Of a stretch of 64,000 nt of DNA, positions 623 through 13,091 are shown piece by piece. Where the stretch lies: assembly GCA_009776305.1 (NCBI GenBank), contig WRLY01000005.1:1-64000 (forward strand). Direction: 5' to 3'. A program made the position numbers and the translations under genes. Origin of the DNA: Oscillospiraceae bacterium (GTDB taxonomy: Bacteria; Bacillota; Clostridia; Oscillospirales; Ruminococcaceae). The notes beneath the pieces were generated by a model. The model was given only the letters and a program-made list of their open reading frames with translations, was not told the origin of the DNA and ran no database searches. Position 1 is the stretch's first letter; every line of letters begins with the position of its first letter.

Positions 623-1000
623 TTATTTTAGTATTTCCGCAACAGCTTCTATTTCCACAAAAGAGCCTTTCGGTAAGGCTCTAACAGCGACACATGAACG
701 CGCGGGCTTTTGAGTGAAGAATCGGGCATAAACCTCATTAAATTCCGCAAAATTATCCATATCGGTCAAAAAACAAGTGGTTTTTATTACGCTGTCAAGA
801 CTGCTTTCAGCGGCAATTAACACTTCATTAAGGTTTTTAATTACTTGCTCGGTTTGCTCTTTAATTCCACCTTCGACTATTTCACCCGATTCCGGCGAAA
901 GAGGAATTTGCCCCGATGTGTAAACGAAAGTGCTTGTTACTATTGCTTGCGAATAAGCACCGATTGCCGCCGGAGCTTTGGTTGTTGTAATTGATTTCAT
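623..1000 (-). CDS. ridA: RidA-family enamine/imine deaminase
   Basis: This 125-residue protein has the full length of the RidA (YjgF/YER057c/UK114) family, which hydrolyses reactive 2-aminoacrylate and related enamines released by PLP enzymes. Visible family features are AIGAYSQA near the N-terminus, SGQIPL, and the C-terminal segment RSCVAVRALPKG carrying the conserved substrate-carboxylate Arg, followed by VEIEAVA. It starts 15 nt downstream of the serine acetyltransferase gene in the same operon. Cysteine synthases and desulfurases work on serine- and cysteine-derived PLP intermediates, so a role in clearing leaked aminoacrylate fits the context. That role is inference from neighbours. 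Confidence 0.93.
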   Translation of the reverse strand: MKSITTTKAPAAIGAYSQAIVTSTFVYTSGQIPLSPESGEIVEGGIKEQTEQVIKNLNEVLIAAESSLDSVIKTTCFLTDMDNFAEFNEVYARFFTQKPARSCVAVRALPKGSFVEIEAVAEILK

Positions 1001-1015: not shown

Positions 1016-1864
1016 TTAGATTACATAATCCCAAAATTCGTTTTGCTCTAATTCGACTTTTTCAAGATTTGAGCTTTTACCGCTCTTGAATTGTAATTCG
1101 GGATTCTTAACACTAACCCTCGTTTTGTCAGGTACGGACTTTGTAACAAATGCGTTTCCTCCAATTGTCGCGCCCTCGCCGATAACCGTTTCGCCGCCTA
1201 AGATAGATGCCCCCGAATAAACCGTGACATAATCCTCCAAAGTCGGGTGTCTTTTTACGCTTTTAAGTTTTTGACCGCCCCTCGTTGACAACGCACCGAG
1301 GGTAACACCTTGATAGATTTTAACGTAATTTCCGATGATTGCGGTTTCGCCGATTACCACGCCCGTACCGTGGTCGATGAAGAAATACGCTCCGATTTTC
1401 GCGCCGGGGTGAATATCAATTCCGGTAATGCTGTGAGCGTGTTCTGTCATCATTCGCGGAATGAGCGGTACATTCAAATCGTACAAGACGTGTGCAATTC
1501 GCTGTACCATGACCGCAAAAACACCGGGATATGAAATTACTATTTCGGCACGACTGTAAGCGGCGGGGTCGCCCTCATACGCCGCTTCTACATCGGTTTT
1601 GAGTGTTTCCCGAAGTGAGGGTATTTTTGCGATAAAACTACCCGCCGTTTCCTCGGATACACCTTGACTTTTCAAGTCGGCATAGACATATTCAAGCGAC
1701 TTTACTAATTCGTTTTCTACACTTTTACCTTTACCGAAATACTCCGGAAAAAGAATAAATCTCATTTTCTCGATAATATCGCTGATTACATCTTTTTCCG
1801 GTTGTTTTTCAGTTACGGTTTTATCAAAGTTTTTCAAAATTTGCTCTGCAACAGACCTTATCAT
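1016..1864 (-). CDS. cysE: Serine O-acetyltransferase (EpsC/CysE type)
   Basis: This 282-residue serine acetyltransferase makes O-acetylserine from serine and acetyl-CoA, the acceptor for cysteine synthase. An alpha-helical N-terminal half (about 1-140) precedes a left-handed beta-helix of hexapeptide repeats (about 150-250) with DIHPGAKIG, FIDHGTGVVIGET (catalytic His and Asp region) and the KRHPTLED loop. The N-terminal half is long, as in EpsC-type enzymes often found beside Family 2A encapsulins. The C-terminus ends in ...FWDYVI; a terminal Ile is the residue CysE uses to dock into the CysK active site, so a cysteine synthase complex is possible. It lies 5 nt after the desulfurase gene. 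SufS-type desulfurases otherwise usually neighbour SufU or SufBCD, which are absent here. Confidence 0.94.
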   Translation of the reverse strand: MIRSVAEQILKNFDKTVTEKQPEKDVISDIIEKMRFILFPEYFGKGKSVENELVKSLEYVYADLKSQGVSEETAGSFIAKIPSLRETLKTDVEAAYEGDPAAYSRAEIVISYPGVFAVMVQRIAHVLYDLNVPLIPRMMTEHAHSITGIDIHPGAKIGAYFFIDHGTGVVIGETAIIGNYVKIYQGVTLGALSTRGGQKLKSVKRHPTLEDYVTVYSGASILGGETVIGEGATIGGNAFVTKSVPDKTRVSVKNPELQFKSGKSSNLEKVELEQNEFWDYVI

Positions 1865-1869
1865 AACAC

Positions 1870-3261
1870 CTAACTCCCTACAAGTTCATAAATCGCCCTT
1901 ACCATTACATCAATCTCCCCAAAAGTGTTATAAAACGCAAAGGTCGGGCGTACACTTGATTCCACGCCGAAGTGCCGCAGAATAGGTTGAGCGCAGTGGT
2001 GCCCCGTGCGAACCGCAATGCCGTAATTGTTGAGGTACTTTCCGACTTGCTCGGTTGTGAATCCGTCAAGCACGAACGACAAAACGCTTGTTTTCTCGGC
2101 GGCAGTACCAATCAACTTGACACCGCTTATTTTACCAAGTTCCGACGTTGCATAAGCCAATAAATCATGCTCGTATTTCAGAATATTCGGAAGACCTATT
2201 TCGCTGACATAATCCAAAGCCGCGCCTAAGCCCACGGCATCAGCGATACTCCCTGTCCCTGCCTCGAATTTAAGCGGCGCGGGATTGTAGACTGTTCGCT
2301 CAAAAGTAACGTCTTTAATCATGTTACCGCCGCCTTGATACGGCTGTGCAATTTCAAGCAATTCTTTTTTGCCGTATAGTGCGCCAATACCGGTCGGTGC
2401 ATAAATCTTATGCCCTGAAAACACAAAGAAATCAGCATCGAGAGCGGTTACGTTTACCGGAATATGCGAGATTGACTGCGCGCCGTCAACCAAAATCCGC
2501 ACACCGTGCCGATGAGCAATTTGTACCATTTCATGCACGGGGGTAATTGTACCGAGCGCGTTCGACACCTGCGTTACCGAAGCAAATTTGGTGTTATGAT
2601 TGAACAGCTTTTCATACTCCGAAAGTATAATTTGCCCTGTGCTGTCAACAGGCGCGACCTTGATTTTCGCGCCCGTTTCGGCGGCTATAATTTGCCACGG
2701 AACTATGTTGGCGTGATGTTCGAGCATGGTGAGGATAATCTCGCTGTTTTGGTTTAATAGCGGCTTGACGTAACTTTGTGCTACAAGGTTAATCCCCTCG
2801 GTAGTGCCGCGAACGAAAACTATATTTTCCGGTGAACCCGCCCCTATGAAATCGGCTACTTTCCCCCTTGCCGCTTCGTAAGCATCGGTAGAACGCGCCG
2901 CCAATTCGTGCGCCCCCCTGTGTACGTTGGAATTTTCATGCTCGTAGTAATAGCTGATTCTGTTTATTACTTGGCGCGGCTTTTGTGTAGTCGCGCCGTT
3001 GTCGAACCAAATTAAAGGCTTGCCGTTTACCTTTTCTGAAAGTATAGGAAAATCCGCACGGATTTTGTCTACACTCACATTACCGACATGAGCGACATTA
3101 TTACCGCCGAAATCCGTAAATGTATCACCGTAATAAGGTGCAATTACAGGAGAATGGGCGGCTTGCTCTTTTGCCTCTTCCTCTAATAATAATTCCTGGA
3201 GAATAGAATCAAAATATTTTGCCCCCGGCGGCTCGCCGGCGCCGGCGTAATCAATAGTCAT
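1870..3261 (-). CDS. SufS-type cysteine desulfurase, probable encapsulin cargo
   Basis: This PLP enzyme converts cysteine to alanine and an enzyme-bound persulfide. The catalytic core (about residue 64 on) has LEHHANIVPW, the PLP lysine in SGHK (about residue 285) and the catalytic Cys in RTGHHCAQP (about 423), the SufS/type II arrangement. The first 63 residues are not part of SufS: they are Gly/Pro/Ala-rich (AGAGEPPGAK), then acidic, then APYYGDTFTDFGG. Family 2A encapsulins load their desulfurase through such a disordered N-terminal domain. I chose ATG 3261 (MTIDYAG), which overlaps the shell gene by 11 nt; an upstream ATG at 3306 would overlap it by 56 nt and lacks a better SD. Translational coupling to the shell gene suggests matched expression. 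The loading role is inferred by family analogy. Confidence 0.92.
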   Translation of the reverse strand: MTIDYAGAGEPPGAKYFDSILQELLLEEEAKEQAAHSPVIAPYYGDTFTDFGGNNVAHVGNVSVDKIRADFPILSEKVNGKPLIWFDNGATTQKPRQVINRISYYYEHENSNVHRGAHELAARSTDAYEAARGKVADFIGAGSPENIVFVRGTTEGINLVAQSYVKPLLNQNSEIILTMLEHHANIVPWQIIAAETGAKIKVAPVDSTGQIILSEYEKLFNHNTKFASVTQVSNALGTITPVHEMVQIAHRHGVRILVDGAQSISHIPVNVTALDADFFVFSGHKIYAPTGIGALYGKKELLEIAQPYQGGGNMIKDVTFERTVYNPAPLKFEAGTGSIADAVGLGAALDYVSEIGLPNILKYEHDLLAYATSELGKISGVKLIGTAAEKTSVLSFVLDGFTTEQVGKYLNNYGIAVRTGHHCAQPILRHFGVESSVRPTFAFYNTFGEIDVMVRAIYELVGS

Positions 3262-4207
3262 AGTATTCACCCACTTCAACATCTTCGAGAACGCCGACCG
3301 CATCATCAGCCAAAATTGCGGCAGAGCAGTAGAGATTCAAGAGATACGAACCGATTCCTTTATTGTCAACCCCTCTGAAACGAATTGACAGACCGCGCCC
3401 GCCCTCGGCTTCAAGTCCCGCTTGATACAGCCCGACTACACCGCGCTTTGCTTCGCCTGTACGAACGAGCAGAATGTTCGTCTTGCCGCTCTTGCCTTTG
3501 GGATTTTTCAACCCATCCACGAATAATTTATCGGTCGGAATAAGCGGGATTCCGCGCCACAGTATAAACGTCCCACCGTGGATATTCGCAGTAACAGGCG
3601 GTACACCTCTTTTTGTACATTCACGCTCAAAAGCGGCGATTGCCCTCGGATGGGCAAGGAAAAAGCCCGGCTCTTTCCAAACCTTTGAGATTAACTCGTC
3701 TAAATCATCGGGGGTAGGCGCGCCTTTTCTTGTGCTGATTCTTTGGGAATCGGCGACATTTTTGAGAAGCCCGTAATCATCATTGTTGATAATCTGGCTT
3801 TCTTGCCGTTCACGCAGACTTTCGATTGCAAGCCGTAATTGCTCTTTGGTCTGGTCGTAAGGTTGCGAGAACACGTCCTGCACTGTCGAGTTTACGTTTA
3901 CAATTGTCGAGATACTGTTCAGAATGTACTCACGCGGTTTTGATTCATACTCAACAAACCCCTCCGGAATTTCATCGCCTTTTCTTTTAGTTGAGCAAAG
4001 CACGTCAAGCGGCGTTTCACCCTCGACTACTTTATTCACCCTGTAAATTCCGCTTTCAAGCCCCTTGAATTCAAGAAATTTTGTCAACCACCTCGGCGTA
4101 ATCGCCCCGAATTGTGGCTGTGTTTTGGCAACGTCCGCTAACTGATAGGCGGGTATACCACCCAAGGCAGTAGCTGCCCCCAGCGCGTTCAATTTGTTTT
4201 CTGCCAT
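3251..4207 (-). CDS. Family 2A encapsulin shell protein (SrpI-like)
   Basis: This 318-residue protein belongs to the HK97-fold Family 2 encapsulins, which assemble into icosahedral protein nanocompartments. Recognisable SrpI-like stretches are FGAITPRWLTKFLEFKGLE near the N-terminus, EYILNSISTIVNVNSTVQD, FFLAHPRAIAAFERECTKRG and the C-terminal SIRFRGVDNKGIGSYLL. No cyclic-nucleotide-binding domain is inserted, which separates Family 2A from 2B. ATG 4207 follows a perfect GGAGG SD; the upstream in-frame ATG at 4222 lies within that SD. The next gene is a SufS-type desulfurase with an N-terminal extension, the known cargo of this family, and then a serine acetyltransferase, also a known neighbour. 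Assignment rests on recognised sequence features, not a search. Confidence 0.93.
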   Translation of the reverse strand: MAENKLNALGAATALGGIPAYQLADVAKTQPQFGAITPRWLTKFLEFKGLESGIYRVNKVVEGETPLDVLCSTKRKGDEIPEGFVEYESKPREYILNSISTIVNVNSTVQDVFSQPYDQTKEQLRLAIESLRERQESQIINNDDYGLLKNVADSQRISTRKGAPTPDDLDELISKVWKEPGFFLAHPRAIAAFERECTKRGVPPVTANIHGGTFILWRGIPLIPTDKLFVDGLKNPKGKSGKTNILLVRTGEAKRGVVGLYQAGLEAEGGRGLSIRFRGVDNKGIGSYLLNLYCSAAILADDAVGVLEDVEVGEYYDY

Positions 4208-4277
4208 TATTTTTTCCTCCATAATATTTTATTTTTATTTTAAGCCGATTGCTTAAAGGTGAAGTAATTTTTGCCGT

Positions 4278-5729
4278 TCAATATATCGGCAATGCCGTGT
4301 CTACATCTCTTGCCCAACCTTTTATGCCGTCAATCAGATTAAAAAGTTTACCCGAATATCCCGCTTCGGTTAAATCTTCGATTGACAGTATGCTCTTTTT
4401 CCCCTCACGGCAAATGAGTACCGTGTCAACTTCGGGTTTTAACTCGTCCATTCTGCGAACAAGCTGTCCGGGCGGGATTACAACCGCACCGGGGAATTTG
4501 ACGATTGCGCGTTCGTGCGGCTCTCGAATGTCGATGATGGTGATTTTATCGCCGTTATCAAGCCGCTCCTTTAATTCTGTAGGCGTGATTGCAAGAATAG
4601 GTTTTTCCTGTTCTTGCTTTTTAATACCGCAAAATTCACAATAATACTCGTCACTACCGACTTCTGTTATTGTGGGATTCTCGCCGCAAAGGGGACAGTT
4701 AGGTGATTTTTCGAGGTTTAACTCATTAAACCGCATATTCCACGCATCGAAAGTGAGAAGTTTTCCGATTAGCGGCTTGCCCCCACCGACAATCAACTTT
4801 ATAACCTCACTTGCTTGCAATGTCCCGACAATCCCCGGTAATACCCCTAAAACTCCGCCCTCCGCACATGACGGAACAAGACCGGGCGGCGGCGGGCTTG
4901 GATAAAGACAGCGGTAACAAGCACCTTTTTCCGCATAAAACACGCTGACTTGACCCTCAAACTGAAAGACCGAGCCGTAAACATTAGGCTTACCCAAAAA
5001 CTTACAAGCATCGTTTACAATATATCGGGTTTGATAATTGTCCGTCCCATCGGCTACAATGTCAAAGTCTTTGATGATGTCAAGGGCGTTTTCACTTGAC
5101 AATGATTCATTGTAAGTAACGACGTTAATATGCTGATTTATGCTTTTGAGCCTGTCCTTTGCCGAAGCGACTTTCGGTCTGCCTACGTCCTTGACACCGT
5201 GGATAATCTGCCTTTGTAAATTCGATTCGTCCACATAATCAAAATCAACAAGCCCGATTGTCCCGACACCCGCCGCCGCTAAGTACAAAGCAAGCGGCGA
5301 ACCAAGCCCTCCCGTACCGATAATCAAAACCTTTGCGGCTTTGAGTTTCTTCTGCCCCTCAATGCCTATTTCCGGCAAGAGCAAGTGGCGTGAATAACGG
5401 GCGATTTCTTCATTAGATAAATCGTCACTCTCGCCAGCGGGGGCTCCCCGCCCGCCTGCGATTGCGGGGACAATCATCAAGGTATCGCCGTCCTTTAGCG
5501 GAGTGTTAAGCCCCTTTAAATTCTTGATATTGTCCGAGCCGAGGAAAACATTGACAAAATCTCTGAGATTTTCTTCATCAAGAAACAAGTGCTTTTTAAT
5601 CGCCGGGTACTGCTCCGTAAGATTTTGCAGAGCTTGCCCTGCCGTCGTGCCTTGCGCGCTGATTTCCGAATTTCGCTCCGTAAAAGAACGCAATGCCGTT
5701 GGAATTAAAATTGTAACTGCCATTTCCAT
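4278..5729 (-). CDS. CysO-like sulfur carrier fused to MoeZ-like ThiF-rhodanese protein
   Basis: Three domains lie in one 483-residue chain. Residues 1-93 match CysO, the ThiS/MoaD-like sulfur carrier of mycobacterial cysteine synthesis, and end in the Gly-Gly (AIAGG) at 92-93, the length of free CysO. Residues about 104-345 are an adenylyltransferase of the MoeB/ThiF type: RYSRHLLLPEIG, nucleotide loop GTGGLG (138-143), ESNLQRQ, the catalytic Asp region DGTDN (about 230), zinc-type pairs CYRC and CPLC, and the conserved SCAEGGVLG. A further CEFC pair follows. Residues 380-483 are a rhodanese with active-site loop CREGKKS (Cys about 440). ATG 5729 was chosen for its AAAGGA SD. The neighbours encode the Mec peptidase and a CysM-like synthase, so the fusion probably adenylates and sulfurates its own carrier, possibly after cleavage. 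Confidence 0.92.
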   Translation of the reverse strand: MEMAVTILIPTALRSFTERNSEISAQGTTAGQALQNLTEQYPAIKKHLFLDEENLRDFVNVFLGSDNIKNLKGLNTPLKDGDTLMIVPAIAGGRGAPAGESDDLSNEEIARYSRHLLLPEIGIEGQKKLKAAKVLIIGTGGLGSPLALYLAAAGVGTIGLVDFDYVDESNLQRQIIHGVKDVGRPKVASAKDRLKSINQHINVVTYNESLSSENALDIIKDFDIVADGTDNYQTRYIVNDACKFLGKPNVYGSVFQFEGQVSVFYAEKGACYRCLYPSPPPPGLVPSCAEGGVLGVLPGIVGTLQASEVIKLIVGGGKPLIGKLLTFDAWNMRFNELNLEKSPNCPLCGENPTITEVGSDEYYCEFCGIKKQEQEKPILAITPTELKERLDNGDKITIIDIREPHERAIVKFPGAVVIPPGQLVRRMDELKPEVDTVLICREGKKSILSIEDLTEAGYSGKLFNLIDGIKGWARDVDTALPIY

Positions 5730-5804
5730 ACCATTCCTTTCTTCACAAATAAGTATTGAAAAGTTTCGTTTTCCCCGTTTCAGTAGATTGATTTTCAAAC
5801 TTAT

Positions 5805-6227
5805 TCATTTCTCATTTTCTATTTCCTCTGAATTAAAGTTTTCTCTGTCGTCCGATAACTCCCAACTCGTAAAATCTTCTGCCCTACCTTTTATAACCGA
5901 AACTATTACATAAGAATAAAAAGGCAATGCGTGTTCTTTGTCGTATTCGGACGGCGCGGCAGGGTGGTCAGGGTGGGAGTGATAAAAGCCTATAATATCA
6001 AGTTTTTGCTCCCGTGCTTTCAGCTCGGCTTTTAGCATATTTTCGGGCGTAATCAAAAATCTGTGATACTGCTCACCGTCCTCGCTTGCATTTATAATCG
6101 GCTCAATGCTTACAGCTTTTTTGCAGTCGTCGTAATTACCATAAATAACCCCGCAACACTCATTGGGATAGGCTTTTTCGCCCTCTGCTTTTATTAGGTT
6201 TTTGATTTCTTCGGATATGTAAATCAT
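5805..6227 (-). CDS. mec: Mec-type JAMM/M67 metallopeptidase
   Basis: This 140-residue zinc peptidase carries the full JAMM signature: Glu in NECCG (about 23), then HSHP and PSEYD (His 83, His 85, Asp 96). In Mycobacterium tuberculosis, Mec+ removes cysteine from the C-terminus of the CysO-Cys adduct and regenerates the carrier. Here the carrier is the N-terminal domain of the next gene, so the peptidase could release cysteine and also cut the fusion after its Gly-Gly. ATG 6227 overlaps the stop of the CysM-like gene (ATGA) and has a GGAGG SD. The last 20 residues are acidic and look disordered. Function is well supported by motif and neighbours; cleavage of the fusion is inference. Confidence 0.92.
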   Translation of the reverse strand: MIYISEEIKNLIKAEGEKAYPNECCGVIYGNYDDCKKAVSIEPIINASEDGEQYHRFLITPENMLKAELKAREQKLDIIGFYHSHPDHPAAPSEYDKEHALPFYSYVIVSVIKGRAEDFTSWELSDDRENFNSEEIENEK

Positions 6228-7177
6228 AAATCCCTCCAAATCGGCTCTGTTAAATACCTATAGCCATTATCACATAAAATCGTCACTATGACGGCATCTT
6301 TCGGGGCGGTTTTGGCGATTTCGAGTGCGGCATGAACATTCGCGCCCGAACTTACCCCCACGAAAATCCCCTGTTCTTTCGCAAGCCGCCGCACCATGTT
6401 ATACGCTTCTTCTGTACCGACTTCGATTTCGCGGTCGGCGATTTCTCTATTGAAAAACCCCGGTTTGAGCGTAGTTTCCATGTGCTTCATGCCTTCTAAG
6501 CCGTGAAAAGGCGAATCAGGTTGCATGAGCGTTATGATTACATCGGGCTTGTCCTCTTTGAGCCGCTTTGCAATCCCCGTGAAAGTCCCGGACGTGCCTG
6601 TCCCTGCCACAAAGTGCGTAAGCGGGGAAGCCCCCGCAGACGACACTCGTCCCGCGGGCAAACCCGGCTTCGCCGGCGGCGATATTTCGGCAGTTTGTTT
6701 TAGTATTTCAACAGCAGTATTGTAATAATGCGCTTTCCAGTTAGCATCGTTGTTATACTGGTCGGGGAAGAAATACTTGTCCGGGTCGGACTTCGCAATT
6801 TCAACAGCTTTCAAATACGCACCGTCGGAACTTTCAAGCGGGTCTGTTTCGATAATTTCAGCCCCGTAAGCTTTGAGGATTTTCTTACGCTCCATACTCG
6901 CGTTTGAGGGCAAGCACAGCGTAACTTTATAACCCAAAGCCGCACCGAACATCGCATAGGCTATTCCCGTGTTTCCGCTTGTGGAATCGAGAATAATCTT
7001 ATCTTTCGTGAGCCGCCCGTCTGCGATTGCTTCAAGCAACATCAGTTTCGCCGCCCTGTCCTTAACCGAACCGCTCGGATTAAAATACTCGGCTTTGGCA
7101 TAAATACGGCAACCGTCCATGTTTATTTCAAGTAGCGGCGTATTACCGACACAATCTAATACATTCAAATCACTCAT
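6224..7177 (-). CDS. cysM: CysM-like cysteine synthase (PLP, fold type II)
   Basis: This 317-residue enzyme of the O-acetylserine sulfhydrylase family has GNTPL at the N-terminus, the PLP lysine in NPSGSVKDR (Lys 39), the substrate loop STSGNTG and the phosphate-binding GTGTSGTF. It diverges from the neighbouring CysK and resembles CysM more: no GPHKIQGIG-type segment and a C-terminus LCDNGYRYL. Next to Mec and a CysO domain, it is the best candidate to use protein thiocarboxylate as sulfur donor, with O-phosphoserine or O-acetylserine as acceptor (unknown). It overlaps CysK by 4 nt (ATGA). Residues about 167-185 are a Pro/Ala/Gly-rich insert absent from relatives I know, encoded by a GC-rich hairpin element (separate entry). 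Confidence 0.88.
6624..6682. repeat. GC-rich palindromic element inserted in frame in cysM-like gene
   Basis: About 60 bp is much richer in G+C than the surrounding gene and folds into consecutive hairpins: GCGGGG/CCCCCGC, CCCGCGGG and CCCGGC-ttc-GCCGG. It is a multiple of three and adds the peptide [18 protein letters not shown] between the EILKQTAEI helix and the [11 protein letters not shown] strand, probably a surface loop. Rickettsial palindromic elements behave like this. Smaller GC-rich blocks occur in the CysO-MoeZ linker (5438-5462) and the desulfurase N-terminus (3220-3247), but I cannot show they are the same family. Confidence 0.55.
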
Positions 7178-8145
7178 CTCCCCACATCAGATAACGGAGT
7201 AGCCAAATACCGTTCACCCGAATCGGGTAACATAGCGACTATGACTTTCCCTTTATTTTCGGGCTTTGCGGCAAGCGTAAGCCCAGCCCACACAGATGCT
7301 CCCGATGATATTCCGCAGAGTATGCCGTCCTCACGGCTGAGTCTTTTTGCGGTGTCGAAAGCATCATCGTTAGTCACCTTGATAATCTCGTCAATCACAT
7401 TGCGGTTGAGGATTTTCGGGACGAATCCCGCCCCGATTCCTTGAATCCTGTGGGGTCCCGCTTTACCGCCCGACAGTACAGGCGAAGCATCGGGTTCTAC
7501 TGCCACGATTTTTACAGACGGCTTTCGTTCTTTTAAGACTTCGCCTACCCCCGTAATCGTGCCGCCTGTGCCTACTCCTGCAACGAATATGTCAACATCG
7601 CCGCCTGTATCACGCCAAATTTCTTCGGCGGTGGTAACACGGTGAACTTGTGGATTGGCAGGATTCTCAAACTGGAGCGGCATGAACGCATCGGGGATTT
7701 GCGACAGCAACTCCCGCGCTTTTTTGATTGCGCCGTTCATACCCTCGCTACCCGGCGTTAAGATTAGCTCCGCACCGAGCATTTTTACTAATTTTCGCCG
7801 CTCAATCGACATTGTTTCGGGCATTGTCAAAATCAGGCGATAGCCTTGCGCCGCACAAGCGAACGCTAAACCGATTCCTGTATTGCCGCTTGTCGGTTCG
7901 ATAACCGTACCGCCGTCTTTGAGTTTACCGTCACGGCGAGCAACTTCAAGCATCGCCGCCCCTATGCGGCACTTTACACTTCCGGCAGGGTTGAACGCTT
8001 CGAGCTTGCCGAGCAACAACCCCGGCAGTCCCGCACCGATTTTCGGCAGACGTACAAGTGGAGTAGCACCGATTACGTCTGTGATTGTTTCGTAAGTTCT
8101 GCCTCTGAAATTTGTGAAACTCGCGAAATTTTCTGAATTACTCAT
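7174..8145 (-). CDS. cysK: Cysteine synthase A
   Basis: This 323-residue O-acetylserine sulfhydrylase forms cysteine from O-acetylserine and sulfide. It matches classical CysK closely: [12 protein letters not shown] lysine in SVKCRIG (Lys 58; the Cys after Lys is also present in Escherichia coli CysK), [43 protein letters not shown] and GISSGA. It sits directly downstream of the ABC transporter ATPase with a 4-nt ATGA overlap, and upstream of the CysM-like paralogue. Free sulfide is the expected sulfur donor, and the serine acetyltransferase in the same operon supplies the acceptor. Two synthases with different donors in one operon suggest division of labour. Confidence 0.95.
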
Positions 8146-9014
8146 ATACTATACCAACTTTCATGTATTGAATCATATTTGAACAACGAGTTTATACGTG
8201 ATTTTAAGTCCAATAACTCCGGGTCGCTTCGTCTGCGCGGACGTTCGGTATTCACCGCAAACCTATTTCTGATACAGCCCGGATTAGGCGAGAACACCAC
8301 GATTTCGTCCGACAAATACAACGCCTCGTCCGTGTCGTGCGTTACCATTACGATTGTCACGCCTGTTTCGTCCCACAATCGCAGTAAATCGTCTTGCAAG
8401 TGTTCGCGGGTAAGCACGTCAACGGCGGCGAACGGTTCGTCCATCAGAATAATTCGCGGTTCTACCGACAATGCTCGTGCAAGTGCCAATCTCTGCCTCA
8501 TTCCTCCCGACAGTTGTGACGGATATTTCCGCAAGGAATCCGTAAGCCCGACTTTTCGTAAGTAAACCAAAGCCTTTCCCTCACGCTCCTTTCGCGGAAT
8601 ACCGCGCAGTTTGAGAGCAAACATGACGTTTTGCAACACCGTCATCCACGGGAAAACTGCGTAATCTTGAAAAATCATAGCGATGTCGTGTTTCGGACGG
8701 TTTTTGAACATACTGTTGGCAAGCGGCGATAGTAGCTTATACTTGCGGCGATAGACTTCCATTTCTTTTCGGGTGGAGGGAAGGGGTTCAAGCACCTGCA
8801 CACCGTCAATGAACACGCTACCCTCGGTCGGGGCTTGCAAGCCGCCGAGAATTTCCAAAAAGGTAGACTTCCCGCAACCGGACGGACCAAGCAGACTTAT
8901 GATTTTCCCGTCCTCGATTGTCAGCGACACCGATAAAACGGCGGTAACACCGTCGGCGGTACGGTCTTCATTGATTATCGAAAAGAATTTACTTACATTT
9001 CGTGCTTCTATCAT
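8142..9014 (-). CDS. ABC transporter ATPase, sulfonate/taurine/nitrate type
   Basis: This 290-residue nucleotide-binding subunit energises the adjacent permease. It shows Walker [11 protein letters not shown]-loop [13 protein letters not shown], signature [15 protein letters not shown], Walker [13 protein letters not shown] and the H-loop VTHDTDEA. The PWMTV/NVMFAL segment is typical of the SsuB/TauB/NrtD family. Between Walker A and the Q-loop lie about 35 extra residues (roughly 75-110, basic, ending KNRPKHD) not found in ordinary SsuB of about 255 residues. It is followed by CysK with a 4-nt overlap and starts 2 nt after the permease gene ends, so it is cotranscribed. The substrate is not shown by sequence; the operon points to a sulfur compound. 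Confidence 0.92.
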
Positions 9015-9016
9015 GG

Positions 9017-9859
9017 TTATCTACCAACCTTCCAAACGGCTAATTTAATCTCGACAAACTTCAAGACTTCAATCAAGAACCAGCCAATCATTCCCAAAGT
9101 AGCCATACATACCACCATTTGAGAAATTCTGAAGTAGTCCTTTGCTTCGTTCAAAATGTAGCCGATGCCTGTTCGTCCGCCGTACATTTCGGCAATTACG
9201 AGCATGACAAGTCCCATAGCGATACCCGTCTTAACGCTCATGATAATCGCACCGATTGAGTGCCAAAAGTACACCCGAAGAATCAGCGTTAATTCGCTTG
9301 CCCCGAATATTCTTGCACTTGCTAAGTAACGCGGGTCGGTGTCCTTGACGGCTTGATAGGTATTGAACAAAATCGGATAGAAAGCCGCCAAGAAAATCAG
9401 AAAGGTTTGCATAGGCAGTCCCACCCCGAAAAGTATAATCGTAATCGGAACCCACGCAGGCGGCGGAATCGGCGAGAGCATTTGAAACAGCGGTAAAACA
9501 CGTTTTCTTATGGAAATGTTCCACCCCATAAGTAAACCGATGGGAATTGCCGCAATTATGGCAAGACCTAACCCCAAAAAGAATTTCACCATGCTGTTAC
9601 CTATGTCCGACAGGAAACCCCGCTGGGTCACCATGACCCAAAAGGTCACGGCGACTTCACTAAGCGGCGGGACAAGTCTGTCATTGACTACACCGAGCCG
9701 CGGCAACAATTCCCACAAAGCCAGCAACGGGATTAAGATAGTGATAAATTCCCATGTGAACAAATTTCCCGCCGCTCCTTTGAAGAAGTAGCCGATTTCA
9801 CGGAAAATAAGTCTTAAAACACTTTTTAATTTACTCATGCTGTTAATGCTCTTGCTCAT
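9017..9859 (-). CDS. ABC transporter permease, SsuC/TauC-like
   Basis: This 280-residue membrane protein has about six hydrophobic segments, beginning with ITILIPLLALWELLPRLG, and the BPD_transp_1 coupling region around ASARIFGASELTLILRVYF, the EAA-like loop that contacts the ATPase. The segment LSPIPPPAWVPITIILFG is characteristic of sulfonate/nitrate/taurine permeases. ATG 9859 overlaps the 3' end of the preceding lipoprotein gene by 17 nt and has a GGGGAA SD; ATG 9838 is an alternative. It forms one importer with the ATPase and one or both binding proteins upstream. Confidence 0.92.
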   Translation of the reverse strand: MSKSINSMSKLKSVLRLIFREIGYFFKGAAGNLFTWEFITILIPLLALWELLPRLGVVNDRLVPPLSEVAVTFWVMVTQRGFLSDIGNSMVKFFLGLGLAIIAAIPIGLLMGWNISIRKRVLPLFQMLSPIPPPAWVPITIILFGVGLPMQTFLIFLAAFYPILFNTYQAVKDTDPRYLASARIFGASELTLILRVYFWHSIGAIIMSVKTGIAMGLVMLVIAEMYGGRTGIGYILNEAKDYFRISQMVVCMATLGMIGWFLIEVLKFVEIKLAVWKVGR

Positions 9860-10715
9860 GCCTGTGTTCCCCTAATATTTCTATCAATTCGTTTCCGGCA
9901 ACAGAAAATTCCGGAACGGGTTGCCCTTGTAAAACCTCAAAATCTATCACGGTATTATCGGCGACAGCTTGCCGAAGTTGGTTTGGCGTAAGAGACCCTG
10001 TTTTTTCAAGTGCTTCAATAAGCGGTTTAACTTGGCTCTCCTTATCGCGCTGTACTAATAAAACAAGCGCGGTTTGGTCAATAATAGCAGGACAGCACTC
10101 GTCCCCTGCGGCAACTTCCCAATTCTGATAAAGTACAGTATGACCCTCATTAAGAGCGGTTACAGAATAGTGACCTTTGATAATCGCCGCATCAACAACC
10201 CCCGCTTCAAGCGCAGGGAGCATTGCGTCAAACGCCATATACTCGTACTTAACATCAGACAAGTCAGCGTTAAGCCGCTCTGCATCGCTTTCAAAAACCG
10301 CAAGCAACTTACATTCGGGAGAAGAAACAGCGATTTTCAGTCCGGCAAGTTCATTAAGCCGTAGATTTAATCCCTTTCGTAGAATGACTACCGCGCCATA
10401 GGGATAGGTTACTTTCCCGACAACCATAAGCCTTTCAAATCCGCCTAATTGCGAAAAGTCTACTATTTTATCAACTTCGACAAATCCCGCATCTAACGAC
10501 CCCGAAAGTAAGGCGTAAGCAACATCGGAAGATGAAGTAAATGTCTGAACATCAAAATTTGCTGTCTGTGCTGTCTGTTCAGCGGTAAGGGCATACAAGG
10601 CGGCAGACAGATACCCGCCGCCATGCCCGACTTTAAACATATCGGATTTTGCCCCGCATGAGGTGAAAGTTATTAAAGCTAATGCAAAAATCAGCAATGT
10701 TCGTAATATACGCAC
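9843..10715 (-). CDS. Second ABC substrate-binding lipoprotein (NMT1/PhnD-like)
   Basis: This protein of about 290 residues has a lipoprotein signal (LLIFALALITFTSC, lipobox Cys near residue 20) and a periplasmic-binding fold of the SsuA/PhnD/NMT1 type: GHGGGYLSAALYAL, SSDVAYALLSGSLDAGFVEVDK, LRKGLNLRLNELAGLKIAVS and ALEAGVVDAAIIKG. I chose GTG 10715, preceded by GGGGG, because it gives a normal signal peptide; a TTG at 10757 would place a polar tail, encoded by a short repeat, in front of it. It lies 57 nt after the first binding-protein gene. Two binding proteins for one permease could widen substrate range, or one may be a receptor. The ligand is unknown. Confidence 0.86.
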   Translation of the reverse strand: MRILRTLLIFALALITFTSCGAKSDMFKVGHGGGYLSAALYALTAEQTAQTANFDVQTFTSSSDVAYALLSGSLDAGFVEVDKIVDFSQLGGFERLMVVGKVTYPYGAVVILRKGLNLRLNELAGLKIAVSSPECKLLAVFESDAERLNADLSDVKYEYMAFDAMLPALEAGVVDAAIIKGHYSVTALNEGHTVLYQNWEVAAGDECCPAIIDQTALVLLVQRDKESQVKPLIEALEKTGSLTPNQLRQAVADNTVIDFEVLQGQPVPEFSVAGNELIEILGEHRHEQEH

Positions 10716-10734
10716 TTCTACCCCCACTTTCGAT

Positions 10735-10767
10735 AACTGTCCATTGTCAACTCTCAACTGTCAACTG
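10735..10767. repeat. Short heptad repeat (AACTGTC-type) in intergenic gap
   Basis: Heptads AACTGTC, CATTGTC, AACTCTC, AACTGTC and a partial AACTG follow each other without gaps between the two binding-protein genes. Comparable runs of GTTGACA-like heptads are, to my knowledge, scattered between genes in many bacterial genomes. It has no obvious fold and is not CRISPR-like. It lies inside the operon and contributes to the 57-nt spacer. Confidence 0.7.
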
Positions 10768-10772
10768 TTTCG

Positions 10773-11807
10773 TCACCATGTTACGCCCTTGAAAGCTTCT
10801 GCGAACATCGTGTCGCCCGGATTTTCCTTTATATCGTCCATAGCGACAAGCTCATCGGCGAGCTTTTTCAGCCCCTCGACCTCAAGGGTAATCCCGAACA
10901 AAAGTCGGTTATTCCCGTGTATAATTGCATCTTTGGGCGCGCCTGTGTAATTGTGTGCGATGTCTACTATGTTTTCGGCGGTCGGGTCGGCGAGAATAAT
11001 CCCGTTTGCTTCATCAATCGCTTTAACGAAATCTTTAAGCGCGTCTGAATTAGAGGACAAAAACCTCTCGCTTGCGTTAATCGTCCGGCAAGGAATATTC
11101 GCCGAAACATCGTCAAACTTTCTGACATAGCCCTCAAGTTCCGCGATACTCGCCTGCGGTTCTTCAAGAATCGAACCGTCAACCGAACCCGCTTGAAGTG
11201 CCTGTATTGCGGGACCGCCTGCAAGACGTTCAAGATTGAATGTCGCCCCCTCGTTTCGGGCGGCTACCGTGAGCGAAATGATTGCTTCACAAGTGGGGGA
11301 AATTCCCGAAATGTTCTTGCCGTCTAAGTCCGCGAGTTCTTTAATATCGGATTCGGGCGGCACTAACAAAACACTTGTGCAGGGCTTCTTGACTTGTGCG
11401 ATTGTTTTAATAGGCGCGCCGTTTGCGATTGCGGCAATTGCCGTAGTCGGGCAAGTCCAAAATACGTCTGCTCCGCCGCTGACTACAAGGTCACGTGCCG
11501 CCGCGTTATCGTCAACAGGGACGATTTCAACGTCAAGGTTGTACTTCTCAAAAAGTCCGAGTTCCTTTGCGACGTAGAGGTTTAAGTGGTGGGTGGTCTT
11601 GGCGTCGGCGACGACTATTTTAATAGGCTCGCTGACAGGTTCGGCGGTGTCTTCGTTGTTGTTGTCGCTGTTGGTTGTGTTTTGAGGAGTGGTCTGATTG
11701 GTACTTCCTCCATCGTTTGTATTACACGCTGTCATTCCTGTTATTAAGAGTGCGAGAGTTGCCAAAATTGCGATAAGCCTTTGGGATTGCTTTAGTTGCT
11801 TGAACAT
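10773..11807 (-). CDS. ABC substrate-binding lipoprotein, SsuA/NrtA type (operon's first gene)
   Basis: This 344-residue lipoprotein has the signal LAILATLALLITGMTAC (lipobox TAC), a low-complexity Thr/Gln/Asn/Glu linker (about 30-60), then an NMT1/SsuA-type binding domain: HLNLYVAKELGLFEKYNLDVEIVP, RDLVVSGGADVFW, AIAAIANGAPIKTIAQV and GSVDGSILEEP. This family binds sulfonates, taurine, nitrate, thiamine precursors or similar small molecules. As first gene behind the promoter at 11908-11936, it would be the most abundant product. The SD AAAGGAGG lies just upstream of ATG 11807. The ligand is not readable; with the sulfur genes downstream, an organosulfur compound is the best guess. Confidence 0.92.
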   Translation of the reverse strand: MFKQLKQSQRLIAILATLALLITGMTACNTNDGGSTNQTTPQNTTNSDNNNEDTAEPVSEPIKIVVADAKTTHHLNLYVAKELGLFEKYNLDVEIVPVDDNAAARDLVVSGGADVFWTCPTTAIAAIANGAPIKTIAQVKKPCTSVLLVPPESDIKELADLDGKNISGISPTCEAIISLTVAARNEGATFNLERLAGGPAIQALQAGSVDGSILEEPQASIAELEGYVRKFDDVSANIPCRTINASERFLSSNSDALKDFVKAIDEANGIILADPTAENIVDIAHNYTGAPKDAIIHGNNRLLFGITLEVEGLKKLADELVAMDDIKENPGDTMFAEAFKGVTW

Positions 11808-11872
11808 TTCATGTTCCTCCTTTAAATAGTCGGCTCAGTTTTGTTTCAACGAGGCGAAGCCGAAGTTGTATA

Positions 11873-11898
11873 CATACAATTCATATATAAATGGTATG
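11873..11898. promoter_or_regulatory. Imperfect dyad over the sulfur-operon start site
   Basis: A 26-bp dyad runs from CATAC to GTATG with an ATATAT centre and matched ATT/AAT arms. It begins 9 bp downstream of the -10 box of the sulfur-operon promoter, where a repressor would block initiation. A further small hairpin (CAAC...GTTG, 11848-11869) lies between it and the first gene. Which regulator binds is unknown; CymR-like Rrf2 or LysR-type sulfur regulators are possible. Confidence 0.5.
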
Positions 11899-11907
11899 TT
11901 ATGAAAT

Positions 11908-11936
11908 ATTATACACTAATTATTTTGATATGTCAA
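11908..11936 (-). promoter_or_regulatory. Sigma-A promoter of the sulfur operon
   Basis: On the minus strand, TTGACA (11931-11936), a 17-bp spacer and TATAAT (11908-11913) make a full consensus promoter. Transcription would start near 11900, leaving a leader of about 95 nt before ATG 11807. No T-box or known sulfur riboswitch is recognisable in that leader. Confidence 0.85.
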
Positions 11937-12461: not shown

Positions 12462-13091
12462 CTATCCGAAGAACCCCGTCCACCACTCATAAACCTTAAA
12501 CTTAGCCTCAACCTTGCCCCCGCCGTTTTCTATTATTTTGCTTGCTTCGGCTGAAAAATAAGGCTCGCCGTTTTTTGCAGAGGCGGCAGGCAGACAAAGC
12601 GGCGGGAAAGCAACGCACCACCAATTCTGCCCGTCGCCCGCGCCAATCGTGACCCTCAGCGCGTCATAATTGCCGGCGGGCATGGTGATGTTTTCATAAT
12701 TACGGGTGGTGAAATACATGTTGACAAGCGATACCTCAACCTCGTAATCAAAACCCTGCGCCTTTATGAATTCCGAGGCGCTTTTTTCAATTTTTGTGAG
12801 ATTTTGGGCGGCTATACGTTTGGCGTCGTCAAGGGTTTCGGCGTCGGCAAATAGCGTTTCTACGTCTTCTATGAGAAAATCCCTGAGCATGTATTTAAGT
12901 CTTTGGTCTTCGTAGTTGTCGGAATTAGGGAGAATGTGCAGGCGCAGAACCTCTCTTTTCACACTTTCGCATTGAGCCGCGAATTCGGCGAAAGAAGCAA
13001 ACGTCGCCAATAACAGTGCTGCGAGCGCACCTATAAGCATTGAAATGGTGAGGATACTACGATTCTTAAAAAGTCTTTTATAAAATGTCAT
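12462..13091 (-). CDS. spoIIR: Stage II sporulation protein R
   Basis: SpoIIR is made in the forespore under sigma-F and is secreted across the septum to trigger SpoIIGA processing of pro-sigma-E. This 209-residue protein has an N-terminal membrane/signal segment (about 15-35) and the family hallmarks VLRLHILPNSD, EDQRLKYMLRD, YDALRVTIGAGDGQNWWCV and FPPLC. Length is normal. It stands alone between a terminator and an upstream region that carries a possible sigma-F promoter. Its presence is the strongest evidence here for an endospore former. Confidence 0.96.
   Translation of the reverse strand: MTFYKRLFKNRSILTISMLIGALAALLLATFASFAEFAAQCESVKREVLRLHILPNSDNYEDQRLKYMLRDFLIEDVETLFADAETLDDAKRIAAQNLTKIEKSASEFIKAQGFDYEVEVSLVNMYFTTRNYENITMPAGNYDALRVTIGAGDGQNWWCVAFPPLCLPAASAKNGEPYFSAEASKIIENGGGKVEAKFKVYEWWTGFFG

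Follow-up and report, generated by a model that had tools for sequence, protein, structure and literature searches.

Why should the shell of a protein nanocompartment, together with a putative desulfurase cargo, be encoded in one gene row with a carrier-dependent pathway for cysteine synthesis? The locus that raises this question lies at the start of contig C5 (WRLY01000005.1) of an Oscillospiraceae bacterium (assembly GCA_009776305.1; 1.54 Mb, 71% complete, seven contigs), in a 64,000-nucleotide stretch that we call the window. From 11807 down to 623 its minus strand carries genes for an importer, CysK, a CysM-like cysteine synthase, a JAMM peptidase, a CysO-E1-rhodanese fusion, a Family 2A encapsulin shell, a cysteine desulfurase, a serine acetyltransferase and RidA, the parts being assigned by sequence and family models (Table 1). 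The genes named in an earlier reading of this DNA made from the letters alone, the sequence-only reading, all lie on that strand where it had placed them, and were assigned by family models. Gene content, order, conservation, catalytic motifs and the precursor form of the carrier can be read from the sequences compared here, and the recurrence of the pairing between shell and cysteine pathway suggests stored sulfur with a dedicated route for its withdrawal.

The loci compared numbered 121, namely the best 80 of 477 shells on named genome contigs, 16 from the window genome and its relatives, and 25 regions from draws by phylum, a set with the window in it and with its closest kin overrepresented. 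Counting the window, 88 shells were at least 69% identical to the window shell, and with genes assigned by best hit 68 of these 88 had an E1 (activating enzyme) and a rhodanese domain in one frame, on the same strand and within 9 kb, with two more cut by a contig end. The E1 gene stood upstream of the shell in 64 of the 68, in 61 of these within 384 nt as measured between hit ends, and downstream of it, past the acetyltransferase, in the other four. None of the 33 Family 2 shells below that identity (2A or 2B) had an E1-rhodanese nearby. Co-occurrence in related genomes was the test that the sequence-only reading had set beforehand, and the linkage that it proposed, of a 2A encapsulin with CysO, MoeZ-rhodanese, Mec and CysM, proved to be conserved in relatives. 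Among the 53 loci with at least 3 kb of sequence before the E1, a carrier was present in 51, a JAMM peptidase in 41, a CysM in 39 and all three in 37.

The E1-bearing loci were labelled Bacillota, Myxococcota, Pseudomonadota, Synergistota, Spirochaetota, Actinomycetota, Thermodesulfobacteriota, Planctomycetota, Deferribacterota, Fibrobacterota and Campylobacterota, 11 named phyla in total, of which the labels of some loci may be wrong; this spread rules out a Clostridia-only trait. Nearly all are from metagenome-assembled genomes (MAGs), several of them titled rumen, ileum or termite, and many of the isolate codes presumably denote termite guts. In one project, identical shells occur in a Bacillota-labelled and a Bacteroidota-labelled MAG (L070 and L071), which is probably a binning error. 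In the draws by phylum, with the centre counted and at E 0.001, the 2A model matched 7 of 398 genomes in the window's own phylum (which we took to be Bacillota) and, around the other centres, 12 of 299 (Pseudomonadota), 28 of 198 (Bacteroidota), 13 of 246 (Actinomycetota) and 4 of 247 (Spirochaetota). Regions beyond the centres were fetched for 6 of 6, 11 of 11, 4 of 27, 2 of 12 and 2 of 3 of these, respectively, and many matches in the Bacteroidota, Actinomycetota and Spirochaetota draws looked 2B-like by their long frames.

Closer to the window, the same association was found among 199 relatives, the window genome included, of which 16 had the shell, 18 the full carrier-E1-rhodanese fusion, 15 both and 180 neither (Fisher p ~1e-18, kinship ignored). 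The contig of the sole shell-only relative (L112) stops inside the rhodanese, and two of the three fusion-only relatives (L128, L129) lie on contigs that stop soon after the fusion. The closest relative, L018, also an Oscillospiraceae bacterium, has a shell 92% identical and retains the row CysM-JAMM-fusion-shell-desulfurase, with no importer, CysK or acetyltransferase nearby. In L029 and L046, CysM and Mec extend to the contig end, so that the missing E1 may reflect where the contig was cut. Some well-flanked relatives are without the module, and the idea that it is universal among them was dropped.

Shell and E1 appear to have travelled together. In a midpoint-rooted tree of 120 of the 121 shells, in which some phylum labels were assigned from the search centre, the E1-linked loci all fell among 86 rows beyond one branch (SH-aLRT 99), and the E1 state changed 7 times among evaluable rows; across the tree as a whole the phylum changed 28 times. 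Identities of shell and E1 were correlated across 66 loci (r 0.65; none of 999 permutations was as high) and over 1584 cross-phylum pairs (r 0.46), and the shells and E1s of a Planctomycetota-labelled and a Bacillota-labelled locus were 95% and 91% identical, respectively. These patterns fit transfer of the cassette between phyla as a unit.

The carrier is the second point at which these loci depart from what is known. In the window, ThiS, ThiF and rhodanese domains share a single 506-codon frame, whose carrier portion matches ThiS at 47.2 bits and the CysO structure 3dwg_C at E 4.7e-12. The motif PAIAGG, or one near it, was located in 65 of 66 scored carriers (the pattern gave no match in that of L126), and residues follow the GG in all 65 readable carriers, none of which ends there; 37 are separate proteins with 1-28 residues past the GG and 28 are fused to E1, including those of the three fusion-only relatives. 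The residue directly after the GG is not fixed, with S, A, R, G and K among those found. By alignment coordinates, the solved CysO chains 3dwg_C (93 residues) and 4n6e_B (90 residues) terminate exactly at GG. E1 adenylation requires a free terminal glycine, so a carrier in which GG is followed by further residues must be cut after it, and on its sequence the carrier is encoded as a precursor, a point that the sequence-only reading did not raise. Most simply, the cutter would be the JAMM peptidase, whose metal motif is complete in all 47 module peptidases, including that of the window. In the AlphaFold prediction for the window's fusion protein, confidence is good over most of the three domains, and the predicted local distance difference test (pLDDT) score is below 50 at residues 87-102 and 104-116, the segments with the GG (90-91) and what follows it. 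The E1 crossover cysteine and the rhodanese cysteine, which we take to be catalytic, are invariant across 22 rows.

Precedents exist for such a cut, all cited here from partial texts. A JAMM peptidase cuts a MoaD-MoaE fusion and frees the C-terminal glycine (PMC8832034), and Iyer et al. proposed JAMM-type release for fused carriers (PMC1779556). The JAMM-processed MoaD-MoaE of D. radiodurans and MoaX likewise have GG followed by a further domain that needs a cut (PMC8832034, PMC4326299), the MoaX protease being left unidentified in the available part of PMC4326299; here, by contrast, the carrier is joined to its own activating enzyme or bears a short tail only. The four activities per row are those of CysO, MoeZ, CysM and Mec of M. 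tuberculosis and of the row 4c operons in the excerpted Iyer et al. 2006, but those carriers end in GG whereas ours are precursors or E1 fusions, and the linkage to an encapsulin and the serine acetyltransferase are found here.

The CysM-like synthase scored 312.6 bits against a curated CysM cut-off of 394.2, and all 47 module CysMs have EGx[KR]H where CysK, by eye, has PHxIQGIG; its use of the carrier thiocarboxylate with O-phosphoserine is putative, from fold and CysM-like signature only. The serine acetyltransferase ends in isoleucine in 35 of 35 related loci, compared with 6 of 19 others, and a C-terminal isoleucine tail of this enzyme binds CysK; the terminal isoleucine is thus shared with the CysE-CysK cysteine synthase complex, from which the present case differs in its placement beside an encapsulin. 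In 75 related loci with at least 2.3 kb upstream, 59 had E1 only, 7 CysK only, 4 both and 5 neither, a pattern of mutual replacement (Fisher p 1e-4, descent uncorrected) in which CysK stood beside the shell in 7 of 12 loci without E1 and 4 of 63 with it (descent likewise uncorrected). The loci in which CysK takes the place of the E1 module are from Fibrobacterota and Spirochaetota (L027, L041, L083, L020, L025, L032, L049).

On the compartment side, the window shell scored 474.2 bits with NF041162 (cut-off 380), the 2B model staying under its own cut-off, and aligned with the SrpI structure 6x8m at E 4.9e-109. By hand count on the alignment it retains F262 and Y273 together with G194 and P196, residues that the part of PMC8049743 used here names in SrpI for cargo contact and for the pore, respectively. 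The desulfurase extension described in the sequence-only reading is present, though short at about 60 residues; it has low pLDDT in the predicted model and holds a YxPxV-like motif whose proline (P38) is invariant across 25 aligned rows. Loose regular expressions for motifs of the extension matched 43 of 71 and 48 of 71 sequences and were not used as proof. The sequence context of the lysine and the cysteine that presumably bind pyridoxal phosphate and carry the persulfide is retained. In four Myxococcota-labelled loci (L036, L054, L063, L067), stretches of 319-538 residues (open frame) rich in proline, alanine and glycine precede the desulfurase core. Family 2A systems such as SrpI of S. elongatus thus share with the window the shell family, the cargo-contact and pore residues, a SufS-type neighbour with a low-confidence N-terminal extension and, according to the consulted part of Andreas and Giessen (PMC8346489), a serine acetyltransferase neighbour. 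The window differs in its short extension, in a second motif that reads YxPxV against the published AASPYYFLDG (as excerpted), and in the added CysO carrier, E1-rhodanese, JAMM peptidase and CysM.

Taken together, these data lead us to propose, tentatively and at somewhat less than an even chance, a conserved cassette for the deposit and withdrawal of sulfur, in which we infer encapsulation, the form of the sulfur, its hand-off and the direction of flow. The N-terminal extension would load the desulfurase into the 2A shell, where the enzyme would take sulfur off surplus cysteine and keep it as persulfide or elemental sulfur, as reported for other 2A systems. The Family 2A encapsulin of A. baumannii is reportedly such a sulfur-storing compartment. 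Storage of elemental sulfur by 2A systems also stands in the title of Benisch et al. 2024 as cited in PMC10960027, and an excerpt of PMC12407261 refers to 2A "sulfur storage". The rhodanese domain of the E1 would take up sulfane sulfur that leaves the shell as something small and diffusible, or that is passed on at its surface, as Andreas and Giessen suggested for rhodaneses (PMC8346489, in part). A hand-off of persulfide sulfur to the rhodanese, which the sequence-only reading had put forward, is thereby plausible, though not by direct entry into a shell with an SrpI-like pore. The JAMM peptidase would meanwhile cut the precursor carrier after GG, removing tail or E1. The E1-rhodanese would then adenylate and thiocarboxylate the cut carrier, which is known MoeZ/CysO chemistry, and the CysM-like enzyme may use the thiocarboxylate to form carrier-cysteine, from which the peptidase would release the carrier again. 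The serine acetyltransferase would provide O-acetylserine, with CysK in this genome as a parallel sulfide route. Such a store would let cysteine be deposited when plentiful and rebuilt when scarce. A more far-reaching version, which we regard as possible and rather doubtful, is a mobile sulfur bank passed among phyla of gut and probably other anaerobes, with a carrier made inactive and activated by JAMM, and with shell sulfur as the missing source of the CysO pathway.

Several observations weigh against this deposit-and-withdrawal proposal. The JAMM gene is not adjacent in 12 of the 53 E1 loci, and CysM is absent from 14 of the 53. A search of 12 such genomes (11 from the count of 53, with L111 replacing L078, in which JAMM lies about 2 kb off; the window genome served as positive control) located one elsewhere in 10, mostly at 29-37% identity, and gave none in the other two. 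G068 (L130), the third fusion-only relative, has 8 kb of other genes downstream of the fusion and no shell, and is a candidate for natural shell loss; L027, L041 and L083, each flanked by over 9.5 kb on either side, have CysK and no E1, and L050 has neither. The first published N-terminal cargo motif is unrecognisable by eye in the window desulfurase, which scored 789.3 bits against a cargo-model cut-off of 800. The pore of SrpI measures 3.7 Å (PMC8049743, excerpt), so if the pore here is similar a rhodanese domain cannot enter and a diffusible form of sulfur must be assumed. Unless sulfur is stored, its passage from one cysteine to another would be futile cycling. An internal promoter is possible within the fusion gene, where weaker promoter-like sites lie, and co-location cannot by itself separate hand-off from co-regulation.

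That last point leads to the rival to be weighed most closely, that the shell with its desulfurase, serving cysteine detoxification or storage, and the CysO route are needed together under sulfur limitation or oxidants and share a regulon and promoter with no hand-off between them, the E1 drawing its sulfur from elsewhere and the desulfurase delivering its own elsewhere. Gene rows commonly collect enzymes of one nutrient, SrpI is induced under sulfur starvation (PMC8049743, in part), the narrow pore blocks direct transfer, G068 retains the module without a shell, and, this desulfurase aside, seven other places in the source genome exceed the Pfam cut-off for Aminotran_5, four of them close to full length, and could donate sulfur. 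From a mere regulon, however, a looser arrangement would be expected than the adjacency and co-divergence of shell and E1 across phyla, and the tendency of E1 and CysK to substitute for each other also speaks for a closer tie, so that we consider a shared regulon unlikely, if well worth keeping in view.

The carrier might instead give its sulfur mainly to another acceptor, such as O-acetylhomoserine sulfhydrylase (MetY, forming homocysteine), tRNA, a cofactor or protein conjugates, with CysM one user among several. The start of a MetY gene comes after the window row, the encapsulin row in the window's genus (L098, L099, L102, L107, L109) has, no more than about 10 kb away, a second carrier-activation cluster of MetY, a rhodanese-less ThiF and JAMM, MetY-linked carrier operons appear in the excerpt of Iyer et al. 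(PMC1779556), and a cysteine-to-cysteine cycle would be avoided. The conserved neighbour is nevertheless CysM (39 of 53) rather than MetY, and the MetY clusters have their own separate rhodanese-less E1; we judge this alternative quite improbable. An assembly or binning artefact might be suspected from a 71%-complete genome with a broken operon end, from the many MAGs among the relatives and from the identical shells labelled as two phyla. Against it stand the 37 loci with carrier, JAMM, CysM and E1 together. The module is also present in L145, whose contig spans 4.06 Mb in a Spirochaetota-group genome of about 4.1 Mb (G1550), and on further contigs of 189, 105 and 88 kb. A chance neighbourhood is refuted by recurrence across loci; we give artefact or chance hardly any weight.

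Each half of the proposed sulfur store was known before. In the parts of the literature used, 2A shells were described with desulfurase, serine acetyltransferase and rhodanese (PMC8346489), and operons with carrier, E1-rhodanese, JAB and cysteine synthase likewise (PMC1779556); the "rhodanese" category of the former survey may already include some E1 fusions. No description of an encapsulin with CysO, MoeZ and JAMM was found among the open-licence papers listed, a scope outside which lie Fig. S5 of the encapsulin-survey supplement and subscription papers. Among the matches listed, neither the joining of both systems in a single conserved unit, nor how widely that unit occurs, nor a carrier that is a precursor in every readable case was described. 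The unit joins two questions, the fate of sulfur from an encapsulated desulfurase and the feed for the rhodanese of MoeZ/CysO, whose sulfur source "so far remains unknown" according to an excerpt from 2011 (PMC3227635). If the hand-off is real, a nanocompartment would store a nutrient and have the route for its release encoded alongside, and a ubiquitin-like carrier, activated when a peptidase cuts it much as a deubiquitinase would, takes part. The loci with and without E1, CysK and JAMM form a large natural series of gene sets usable for testing.

Table 1. Features of the encapsulin row and its flanks, with positions in the window
Feature	Position	Strand	Basis
Promoter-like TTGACA-17-TATAAT ahead of the row	11908..11936	-	12/12 consensus match, pattern only
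Substrate-binding protein 1, NMT1/SsuA superfamily, lipoprotein-like start (by eye), accessory	10773..11807	-	Family models
Substrate-binding protein 2, weak SsuA-family match, accessory	9843..10757	-	Family models
ATP-binding cassette (ABC) permease, BPD_transp_1, accessory	9017..9859	-	Family model
ABC ATPase, accessory	8142..9014	-	Family model
CysK, O-acetylserine sulfhydrylase A	7174..8145	-	TIGR01139, 452 bits vs cut-off 351
CysM-like cysteine synthase, PALP	6224..7177	-	EGx[KR]H signature; below curated cut-offs
Mec-type JAMM peptidase (Prok-JAB)	5805..6239, likely ATG 6227	-	HxHx7Sx2D metal motif complete
CysO-like carrier domain, ends ..IVPAIAGG, internal rather than C-terminal	5451..5723	-	ThiS match
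CysO-E1 (MoeZ/Uba4-like)-rhodanese fusion, open reading frame (ORF)	4278..5798, likely ATG 5723	-	ThiS + ThiF + rhodanese
Family 2A encapsulin shell, ORF	3251..4222, likely ATG 4207	-	NF041162
SufS-type cysteine desulfurase, ORF, putative cargo	1870..3306, likely ATG 3261	-	Family models
Serine O-acetyltransferase (EpsC/CysE), C-terminal Ile	1016..1864	-	EpsC, 157.8 vs cut-off 150
RidA-type protein	623..1000	-	Family model; not conserved in the unit
O-acetylhomoserine sulfhydrylase (MetY), N-terminal 89 codons, broken off near contig start	282..551	-	Family models

The layout of the row is operon-like. With likely starts, spacing ranges from -17 to 81 nt, as tight as the sequence-only reading had described, with four-base overlaps between ATPase and CysK and between CysK and CysM. 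If the desulfurase starts at the ATG at 3261, which is 8 nt ahead of the shell stop codon, the two genes overlap by 11 nt, and 11 nt before the shell stop was also the commonest position in related loci (31 of 71), as scored by a script that sought ATG only up to the hit start and therefore mis-scored hits reaching into the shell gene (the window at -53); the overlap looks like conserved translational coupling. The single consensus promoter claimed earlier was recovered in front of the row, and five weaker promoter-like sites on this strand, matching 9-10 of 12 positions, lie within the fusion gene; the scan found 36 such sites in 16 kb, compared with 23.5 (standard deviation 4.9) in shuffled sequence. 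A separate promoter and terminator between cysO-moeZ and the shell had been named as evidence that would speak against one unit, and the pattern scan of the gap at 4223-4277 found neither a promoter-like nor a terminator-like site. Rfam at gathering thresholds gave only one tRNA in the window, and a riboswitch or T-box leader was rejected.

The importer fared less well. Its binding proteins scored 71.5 and 37.4 bits against an SsuA cut-off of 163.5, so that only the NMT1/SsuA superfamily, and not a sulfonate type, is supported, and beyond the window nearly the same importer genes, arranged alike, were found only in the Treponema locus L055, which has no second binding protein; the importer was set aside as a core member of the unit. 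Distant ABC genes lie upstream in four more loci (L042, L052, L075, L079). RidA and MetY are not conserved across the compared loci and were also rejected as core members. At the contig start (1-551), the truncated MetY is followed by a same-strand frame resembling RHS/YD repeats by eye, with no Pfam hit, that runs to the contig end, and the break reflects an insertion or else a chimera at the end of the contig. Immediately upstream of the operon, on the same strand, a SpoIIR-family protein is encoded at 12462-13091, and the host probably belongs to a spore-forming lineage.

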